DNA from: an alpha proteobacterium SCGC AAA536-G10
GTDB lineage: Bacteria > Pseudomonadota > Alphaproteobacteria > Puniceispirillales > Marisalimonadaceae
Length of the DNA: 32,028 nt
Direction: 5' to 3'
NCBI GenBank assembly: GCA_905182395.1
Contig: CAJJBL010000053.1
Span: 1 to 32,028 of the forward strand
This document shows positions 15,162-32,028 of the stretch, piece by piece. Position numbers and translations under genes: made by a program. Positions within the stretch are counted from its first letter, which is position 1. The number at the start of each line of letters is the position of its first letter. A model generated the notes under the pieces. It had not been told where the DNA came from. It worked only from the letters and a program-made list of their open reading frames with translations, and made no database searches.

Positions 15162-16952
15162 TCATGTCCAAAAAAATATAATAATTGGGATTGAAATACA
15201 TATGATTAGTATTTCTAGAGGTAGACCTAGTTTCCAGTAATCTCCAAACTTATAATTACCCGGCCCCATAACCAATGTATTACATTGATGACCTATAGGA
15301 GACAAAAAAGCACAGCTCGCTCCAATGGCAACGCACATTAAAAAAGCATCAACTGATTGTCCTGTTTCAGAAGCAACGTTTGCTGCAATTGGTGCCATTA
15401 TTACAGCTGTTGCAGCATTATTTATAACATCAGATAAGAACATAGTAATCACCATTATTATTATAAGAATCCAAACCAAATCTAATACATTTGAATATTG
15501 AGCTAACGATGATGAAATTGAGGATGTTATACCATATTCAGTTAATGTGTTTCCAATAGGTATCATTGCTGCAAGCAAAACCACCACAGGCCAATCAATA
15601 TGTCTATAAATACTATCACCTGTTAGCAATCGAATAGAAGCAAAAGCAAGAACACAAAGAAGAAAAGCAACTATAATTGGAAGAAAATCAAAAATTATAG
15701 AAGACAAACTTAGTAAGAAGATACCTATGGCTAGAAATGTTTTTGAAGTATCGTTAACAATATCAAACTCTCTTTGCCACAAAGGCATCAAACCAGCAAG
15801 TTCAAGTCTTTCTCCAATTTTAGATTCATCTCCTCTGTTAGCAATTAATAAAACATCTCCTGATTTGAAAATTTCATTAGATAATCTAAATCTATACTTC
15901 AATCCTCTTCTCCACAAACCTAATAAAGATAATTGTCCACCTATTAGTCTTTTAAAATAATTATATTTTCTTCCAATAAGTCTAGATTTTGGAATAATAA
16001 TAGCTTCAATTCCAGCAATATTTTTACTCATATTAAGATCATCTTCTAAATTCAAACTCAACCCAAAGTCCTTTTGGATTTCTGCAATGTAATCAGGGTT
16101 TATTTTAAGAATTAAAATTTGCCCTTCATAAATTTTATAATTTCCATGTATTTCTGATTTTTTATTTTCTTCATTTATTTTACCTATTAAAGAAGTATCG
16201 TCATCTAACATACTCCTAAGATCATAAGCACGTTTATCTATTAAAGGACTATTTGCATTTACTTTCATCTCAACAAGATAATCGTCTAAATTGATTAAAG
16301 GATTATTAACAGAGTTTATTGGCCTAATAGGAATTAGTCTCCATCCTATCAACATAATAAAAACTATACCAATTACGCTTACGGGTACCCCTACAAATGC
16401 AAAGTCAAAAAAACTAAAATCTTTACTTGAATATTCACCTCTTAATTCTGAAATTATTATATTAGGAGGTGTTCCTATTTTAGTGTTCATTCCTCCTAAA
16501 ATTGATGCAAACGCTAATGGCATTAAAAATTTTGAGGGATTCCATTCCATTCTTTGACAAATAGAAATTGTAATTGGTAAAAGCATTGCCATTGCACCAA
16601 TATTATTCATAAATGATGACAAAAATGCTGCTATTAGACATAAAATTAAAATAAATTGTGTCTGAGAGTGAATTATTTTTTGAATTTTCATACCTAAAAA
16701 TGAAATAAATCCAGATTTTTCAAGACCTTTACTTATTAATAAAACTAAAGCCACTGTTACAACAGCTGGATGACCTAAGCCTGAAAAAGCCTCTCTAGCT
16801 GGAATAAAACCAAAAATCACAAACAAAGATAGCATTATTAGAGAAACAGCATCATATCTTACTTTTCCCCAAATAAATAAAGCAACAAGGATTATCATTA
16901 AACATGAAATTATATTTTGGTCTGTTATTGAGTTTATTATTGTTAAGTCCAT
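15162..16952 (-). CDS. SLC13 family permease with central TrkA-C-like domains
   Basis: FIPAREAFSGLGHPAVVTVALVLLISKGLEKSG, FMNNIGAMAMLLPI, GTPPNIIIS, IGHQCNTLVMGPGNYKFGDYWKLGLPLE. Confidence 0.9.
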   Translation of the reverse strand: MDLTIINSITDQNIISCLMIILVALFIWGKVRYDAVSLIMLSLFVIFGFIPAREAFSGLGHPAVVTVALVLLISKGLEKSGFISFLGMKIQKIIHSQTQFILILCLIAAFLSSFMNNIGAMAMLLPITISICQRMEWNPSKFLMPLAFASILGGMNTKIGTPPNIIISELRGEYSSKDFSFFDFAFVGVPVSVIGIVFIMLIGWRLIPIRPINSVNNPLINLDDYLVEMKVNANSPLIDKRAYDLRSMLDDDTSLIGKINEENKKSEIHGNYKIYEGQILILKINPDYIAEIQKDFGLSLNLEDDLNMSKNIAGIEAIIIPKSRLIGRKYNYFKRLIGGQLSLLGLWRRGLKYRFRLSNEIFKSGDVLLIANRGDESKIGERLELAGLMPLWQREFDIVNDTSKTFLAIGIFLLSLSSIIFDFLPIIVAFLLCVLAFASIRLLTGDSIYRHIDWPVVVLLAAMIPIGNTLTEYGITSSISSSLAQYSNVLDLVWILIIIMVITMFLSDVINNAATAVIMAPIAANVASETGQSVDAFLMCVAIGASCAFLSPIGHQCNTLVMGPGNYKFGDYWKLGLPLEILIICISIPIIIFFWT

Positions 16953-30624: not shown

Positions 30625-31569
30625 TTAAATTGCTGTTCTTTTAGCGGCTTCAGAATTGTGGTCACCTGCTTCATCCCAATAAGGAACTGGCCCATAAATT
30701 TCTATTAAAAAGTCAAGAAACGCCCTTACCTTTGGTGACAAATGCTTGCCACTTGGATATACGGCATAAATAGGGTAATCTTCTTGAACATATTCATCTA
30801 GTATTGAAACCAATGTCCCTGCAGCAATATGCCTTCCAACAACAAATCTAGATAACATAGCTAAACCACCACCATTAATTGCAGATCTAAGAATAGCATC
30901 TCCATGGTTTAATTGTAACATTCCTTTTGCATGTATTAACCTTATCTTTCCATCCACAAGAAAATGCCAATCATTATAAGGACTTCCATTTCTAAATGAA
31001 ATTATATCGTGCTTACCCAAATCATCTGGGTGATTAGGTTTACCCTTTCTTTTAATATATGATGGAGAAGCAAATAAAGTTCTAGGATTTGGAGCAAGTT
31101 TTCTAGCTATTAGAGATGAGTCTTTCATTAAAGCTATCCTAATTCCTAGGTCAATATTATTATCTATTAGATCTAATTCATTATCAGAAATAACCATTTC
31201 TATTTCAACTTCAGGATACCTTTCTCTAAAAAGAGGAAGATGTGGAGCAACATGTCTATAAGAAAAAGTACTAGGCGCTGTAATTCTTAAGTGTCCACGC
31301 GGAGCATTTGTGGCGCTTGAAACAGCTGCTTCAGCTTCATCAACATCTCCAATAATTCTCCTTGCCCTATCAAGATAAGCAAATCCTACTTCAGTTAATG
31401 AAACAGAACGAGTTGTTCTATTTAATAACCTAGCTCCTAAGCGATCTTCAAGAGCAGAAATACTTTTAGAAACAACAGAAGGCGATAAATCCATTTGCCT
31501 TCCTGCTTTTGCAAGAGAACCGTTATCAGCAATAGAAACGAAAACTCTCATCCCTGATAATAAATCCAT
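30625..31569 (-). CDS. LysR family transcriptional regulator
   Basis: N-terminal HTH FVSIADNGSLAKAGRQMDLSPSVVSKSISALEDRLGARLLNRTTRSVSLTEVG. Confidence 0.95.
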   Translation of the reverse strand: MDLLSGMRVFVSIADNGSLAKAGRQMDLSPSVVSKSISALEDRLGARLLNRTTRSVSLTEVGFAYLDRARRIIGDVDEAEAAVSSATNAPRGHLRITAPSTFSYRHVAPHLPLFRERYPEVEIEMVISDNELDLIDNNIDLGIRIALMKDSSLIARKLAPNPRTLFASPSYIKRKGKPNHPDDLGKHDIISFRNGSPYNDWHFLVDGKIRLIHAKGMLQLNHGDAILRSAINGGGLAMLSRFVVGRHIAAGTLVSILDEYVQEDYPIYAVYPSGKHLSPKVRAFLDFLIEIYGPVPYWDEAGDHNSEAAKRTAI

Positions 31570-31719: not shown

Positions 31720-31811
31720 GGAGGGGTGGCCGAGTGGCTGAAGGCGCCGGTTTGCTAAATCGTTAAAGGGAGAAATCCCTTTCGGGGGTTCGAATCCCCC
31801 TCCCTCCGCCA
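31720..31811 (+). tRNA. tRNA-Ser (anticodon GCU)
   Basis: Acceptor GGAGGGG pairs with TCCCTCC (one G-U), then discriminator G and encoded CCA; D-arm GCCGAGTGGCTGAAGGC; anticodon loop TTGCTAA; long variable arm AAAGGGAGAAATCCCTTT; T-arm GGGGGTTCGAATCCCCC. Confidence 0.97.
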
Positions 31812-31935
31812 TAATTAATCACCTCATCATCAAATTGCACCTAAATATATGCCAAAAATCCCATGATTTATATAGCATTTATGGGATAATATTTTATTAT
31901 TAATCCTTTGCAGGCCGTTGCAATACATGTTATTA

Positions 31936-31956
31936 TGTGGGGTATTTTGTGGGGTA
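31936..31956 (+). repeat. Direct repeat TGTGGGGTA x2 (12-bp period) just upstream of the integrase start
   Basis: TGTGGGGTA at 31936-31944 and 31948-31956, separated by TTT. Confidence 0.85.
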
Positions 31957-31959
31957 AAA

Positions 31960-32028
31960 ATGATTAAAAGACATCCCTATAACAAACTGACATCAATTGC
32001 TGTAAAAAAACTATCCAAACCTGGTAAA
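31960..32028 (+). CDS. Tyrosine recombinase/integrase, P4-type N-terminus (partial, runs off right edge)
   Basis: ATG followed by an open frame to the window end: MIKRHPYNKLTSIAVKKLSKPGK. This resembles the start of DUF4102 (P4-type) integrases and lies about 150 bp downstream of tRNA-Ser. Confidence 0.72.
   Translation, partial: MIKRHPYNKLTSIAVKKLSKPGK

Follow-up and report, generated by a model that had tools for sequence, protein, structure and literature searches.

Islands carrying P4-type (DUF4102) integrases that target tRNA genes have a characteristic layout, in which the integrase lies by the 3′ end of the tRNA and reads away from it while the tRNA itself stays intact, and in which a short duplicated segment of the tRNA 3′ end serves as att and the cargo varies. 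The locus described here has the first of these properties and its relatives have the others; it is unlike those islands in that the core is only 10 bp long and the targets are SAR116 tRNA-Ser isoacceptors, and in that the DNA analysed represents the left end only. Tandem accretion has been described for ICE, IME and CIME elements (Streptococcus and others; PMC5704250), which the relatives resemble in bearing att-bounded modules in tandem, some of them without an intact integrase; unlike in those systems, no conjugation genes were identified here, and it is the att copies seen on draft contigs that point to tandems. Tycheposons (Prochlorococcus) and tRNA-bounded islands (Methylophilaceae, PMC10872708) are likewise flexible cargo regions of streamlined marine bacteria that have a tRNA border and a tyrosine recombinase, but the recombinase here has an Arm-DNA-bind_3 domain and sits at tRNA-Ser, and the comparison is one of general layout. 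The arrangement is of a well-known kind, and what is of interest is the occurrence of tandem att arrays, or stacked modules, in SAR116 relatives. The SAR116 lineage is abundant in the ocean. The searchable literature says little about its mobile elements, and we found nothing specific there on SAR116 islands at tRNA-Ser.

The window (the whole stretch of DNA that was analysed, 32,028 bp, with its right end at 32028) is a complete contig, G000:C53, of a 1.43 Mb genome (G000) that is 85% complete and assembled in 123 contigs. Its features at the right end are as follows.

30625–31569, minus strand: LysR-type regulator, chromosomal left flank (Pfam; collinear with sister genome G001)
31720–31811, plus strand: tRNA-Ser, anticodon GCU, 3′ CCA encoded; integration target (ARAGORN)
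31802–31811, plus strand: att core CCCTCCGCCA, attL copy (assigned from relatives that repeat exactly these 10 nt at the far end)
31812–31959, plus strand: element-side attL arm and integrase leader (sequence comparison with G025)
31960–32028, plus strand: P4-type (DUF4102/Arm-DNA-bind_3) tyrosine integrase, first 23 codons, cut by the contig end (open reading frame and orthologues)

A preliminary description of this DNA had proposed an intact tRNA-Ser(GCU) with encoded CCA, followed after about 148 bp by the start of a P4-type tyrosine recombinase. ARAGORN calls the tRNA at 31720–31811, and the reading frame (MIKRHPYNKLTSIAVKKLSKPGK) begins with an ATG at 31960, 148 bp past the tRNA, and stays open until it runs off the right edge of the window. 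Pfam recognised no domain in these 23 residues alone. A DNA search of 58 genomes of the family returned two that match through tRNA, leader and reading frame at 79–80% identity, G025:C4 and G031:C32 (the SAR116-cluster single cells AG-899-L08 and AG-439-F07, of a genus other than the window's); both have the same tRNA, near-equal spacing between tRNA and integrase, and the reading frame complete at that place. Given these two SAR116 relatives, the window most likely represents a different genus within their SAR116 family. The G025 orthologue (P0002, 407 aa counted from the matching ATG) comprises Arm-DNA-bind_3 (PF13356, 3.8e-16), Phage_int_M (PF22022, 1.7e-24) and Phage_integrase (PF00589, 1.2e-14), and by eye offers ACRTSEV, HGMRSSF, ALAH and AAYRR as candidates for the catalytic R-K-HxxR-H-Y set, a region that in the window would fall past the contig end. 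The window peptide is identical to P0002 at 19 of 23 residues, the best of 2,000 shuffles reaching 10; the 12 nucleotide differences at the start of the frame fall 2, 1 and 9 at the three codon positions, mostly the third; and start codon and leader are conserved between the window and its relatives. Because the orthologues in G025 and G031 share the tRNA, the spacing, these 19 residues and a third-position pattern of substitution, we assign the window reading frame as an integrase, and full-length three-domain orthologues at the same site bear out its proposed P4-type identity. The window's own integrase is presumably complete and functional. Immediately ahead of it lies a direct repeat, GTGGGGTA, with copies at 31937–31944 and 31949–31956 (a 12-bp period), which are possible arm sites for the integrase.

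The only other genome of the window's genus, G001, is collinear with positions 2–31821 in blocks of 86–98% identity. Similarity ends 10 nt past the tRNA, beyond which the sister carries different DNA without the window's integrase. Genes of the left flank are ordinary (hydantoinase B, amidohydrolase, G6PD, DEAD helicase, LysR), and the expectation of ordinary chromosome to the left of the tRNA and accessory DNA to its right agrees with this comparison. Searching G000 with the DNA that follows the tRNA in G001, for a displaced flank, revealed no more than weak similarity, within another island on contig C22. Within the collinear stretch, a gene resembling CitMHS citrate transporters (596 aa, 15162–16952) is missing at that place from the sister genome.

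The second att copy proved shorter than had been proposed. The preliminary description took a 31-nt 3′ segment of the tRNA as the repeat; neither 22-nt words with 3 mismatches nor exact 11-nt words found a long tRNA repeat as attR, and the core was detected only with shorter words. Such words revealed a recurrent far end in the relatives (...GAGGAGGTT-CCCTCCGCCA-TTA...), in which the duplicated core corresponds to the final 10 nt of the tRNA gene, CCCTCCGCCA. This 10-mer occurs in 32 copies in 14 genomes (14 copies being the tRNA itself), as against 1 match for a reversed control pattern; of the 18 non-tRNA copies, 3 appear chance-like by their context (G014:C9, G017:C63, G034:C8). A second copy had also been expected in the window's own genome, where CCCTCCGCCA occurs only once in the assembled sequence; the assembly contains neither an attR nor any further piece of the integrase, and an Arm-DNA-bind_3 domain is likewise missing from it, an absence which, at 85% completeness and in 123 contigs, constitutes weak evidence. 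A block of genes beyond the hotspot on its right side, comprising an oxidoreductase and its neighbours, was considered as a marker for the right flank in the genus of the window and rejected, as it lies in a different setting there. With the 10-bp core as a simple search key, draft and single-cell genomes can be screened for the borders of islands, for empty sites and for tandem modules.

Comparison with relatives lacking the insertion, as the preliminary description had suggested, was possible both with G001, which has no such integrase at the same site, and with occupied and unoccupied pairs across the family. In G020 a single contig runs from the tRNA through the integrase to the far core and contains a whole element of 18.8 kb; the sequence to the right of its attR matches what immediately follows the tRNA in G011 (88.7% over 399 bp) and in G005 (88%). 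Four further pairs join flanks across contigs: the attR flank of G039 with the tRNA flank of G037 (93.7% over 399 bp), G042 with G056 (94.8% over 212 bp), G013 with G017 (84.8% over 400 bp), and the attR flank of G040 with the tRNA flank of sister genome G001 (87.9% over 199 bp). By this last match, the sister bears directly past its tRNA the kind of sequence found past a far core in G040. Read as occupied and unoccupied alleles, these pairs show insertion in the relatives. Integrase regions and their hosts also differ in relatedness: G042 and G027 are 99.7% identical in the chromosomal flank and 84.5% in the integrase region, G034 and G014 are 85.1% and 97.8% identical in the same two regions, and the integrase regions of G039 and G055, which belong to different genera, are 94% identical. 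Such incongruence between element and host is as expected of mobile elements that have been exchanged repeatedly. For the window, the integrase side (31812–32028) is 73.5% identical to G025 and the chromosome 76.5%, and because the two differ from G025 about equally, we retain the option that the window's copy may be of old vertical descent.

We conclude that an integrative element (genomic island) very probably inserted itself at the 3′ end of tRNA-Ser(GCU) through site-specific recombination, and that the junction is its attL end. In the proposed mechanism, the element's own P4-type tyrosine recombinase would join the terminal 10 nt of the tRNA gene (CCCTCCGCCA, attB) with the identical attP core of a circular form; the element would supply its own copy of these 10 nt and thereby leave the tRNA whole, and the copy it displaces would come to mark the far end as attR. 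Within the family the same att is reused, and on this account the site holds tandem att-bounded modules, phage-defence genes among them. The window itself contributes the tRNA, the attL arm, the start of the integrase and an integrase allele absent from the collinear sister; the relatives contribute the integrase, the duplicated core, occupied and unoccupied alleles, element/host incongruence and cargo. For the window's element, we infer an attR, cargo and mobility from these relatives. The edge of an island or integrative element that had been proposed at this position is upheld by the orthologous integrases at the same position, the divergence of G001 past 31821, the allele pairs and the ordinary left side.

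Three other accounts of the junction were weighed against this one. The contig stops only 69 bp into the reading frame, and tRNA and frame might be unrelated neighbours brought together by chance or by misassembly at a contig end; this can practically be dismissed, as the independent single-cell assemblies of G025 and G031 have the same order of tRNA, leader and integrase at near-equal spacing, which refutes it. The junction might also be the remnant of a decayed island, an immobile integrase fragment left by the tRNA after loss or degradation of the element, with the break possibly beyond codon 23. Degenerate or truncated integrases do occur at this tRNA in the family (a 133-aa fragment in G052, a 195-aa fragment in G021), and G000 itself has a degraded integrase past tRNA-Arg on C22; yet the 23 visible codons are intact and differ from G025 and G031 by coding-type substitutions, and start codon and leader have been kept, such that we regard a remnant as unlikely, if still the most serious of the three.

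A prophage or phage satellite at tRNA-Ser, in place of a non-viral island, appears more improbable again. Phages often carry integrases of this family (363 phage records matched, the best at 40%, Caulobacter phage DMCA), and an element of the sister genome at this att type (on G001:C20) pairs an integrase with a phage-like DNA polymerase. Against this, a search of viral contigs for a packaged or circular form returned no relatives and no att patterns, no viral contig having a close integrase or att junction, and the cargo scanned in the closest relative comprises defence and protease genes and includes no gene for phage structural proteins. An integrative element at tRNA-Ser(GCU) remains the preferred explanation of the window's right end.

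Across the 58-genome family, the tRNA-Ser site is an integration hotspot. The sequence past CCA varies widely among 38 stretches read downstream of tRNA-Ser(GCU), and a single homologous integrase family recurs there, full-length or nearly so in 15 stretches and partial in others. Arm-DNA-bind_3 is matched in 35 of the 58 genomes, and 33 of its 58 matches lie directly past a tRNA-Ser on the same strand (16 at tRNA-Ser(GCU), 17 at other tRNA-Ser). G013, G039, G040 and perhaps G027 contain at least three cores each, and their middle core is followed by sequence that elsewhere lies directly past the tRNA; we read these multiple cores, on draft contigs, as modules that would have been stacked by integration into the same att, that is, by accretion. 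The G001:C20 element (L125, 3922–5307 after reverse-complementing) has an integrase of the same family in opposite polarity, which starts ~160 bp from the core on its left side and points away from it; the element seems, again on draft contigs, to represent a second type using the same core.

G025 shares the integrase type of the window, and on its contig C4 a distance of ~39.7 kb separates the core in the tRNA (C4:39859) from the far core (C4:205). The island between them (C4; L042 and L078) has a C5 methyltransferase adjoining the candidate defence proteins PDC-M33A, B and C, together with two CHAT-domain proteins, a Sel1-repeat caspase, a trypsin-like protease and a helicase; undescribed defence systems may be present in this island. 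No relaxase, conjugation genes or oriT were found among the G025 proteins scanned, which are part of the island's complement. Near the far core, genes are shared with other genomes at 89–100%, and this stretch is probably an older layer. The relatives' islands contain candidate defence sets. A broader model, plausible although we lean slightly against it, would make SAR116 tRNA-Ser genes standing docking sites for stacked att-bounded modules that share the 10-bp core, one kind with a tRNA-proximal integrase and defence cargo and a second with its integrase next to attR; such stacks would grow in tandem and turn over, would form a principal reservoir of the clade's defence genes, and would have one of their ends in the window. 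Taken alone the window is one more left end; the stacked-module hotspot suits comparative study.

Several smaller observations concern neighbouring sites. In genomes without a proximal integrase, a motif like GTGGGGTA occurs in reverse complement (TACCCAC...TACCC) ~55–60 bp past the tRNA, possibly serving the other type of element as arm sites. The window's genome has a second tRNA/integrase junction near a contig edge, G000:C55 (L007:249–1551), where tRNA-Gly(GCC) is followed by a 383-aa tyrosine recombinase. On G000:C22 (L006:805–1854), tRNA-Arg(ACG) is followed by a degraded tyrosine recombinase with a broken frame, and weak matches to island DNA of G001 lie 4–9 kb further on; this is probably an old island.
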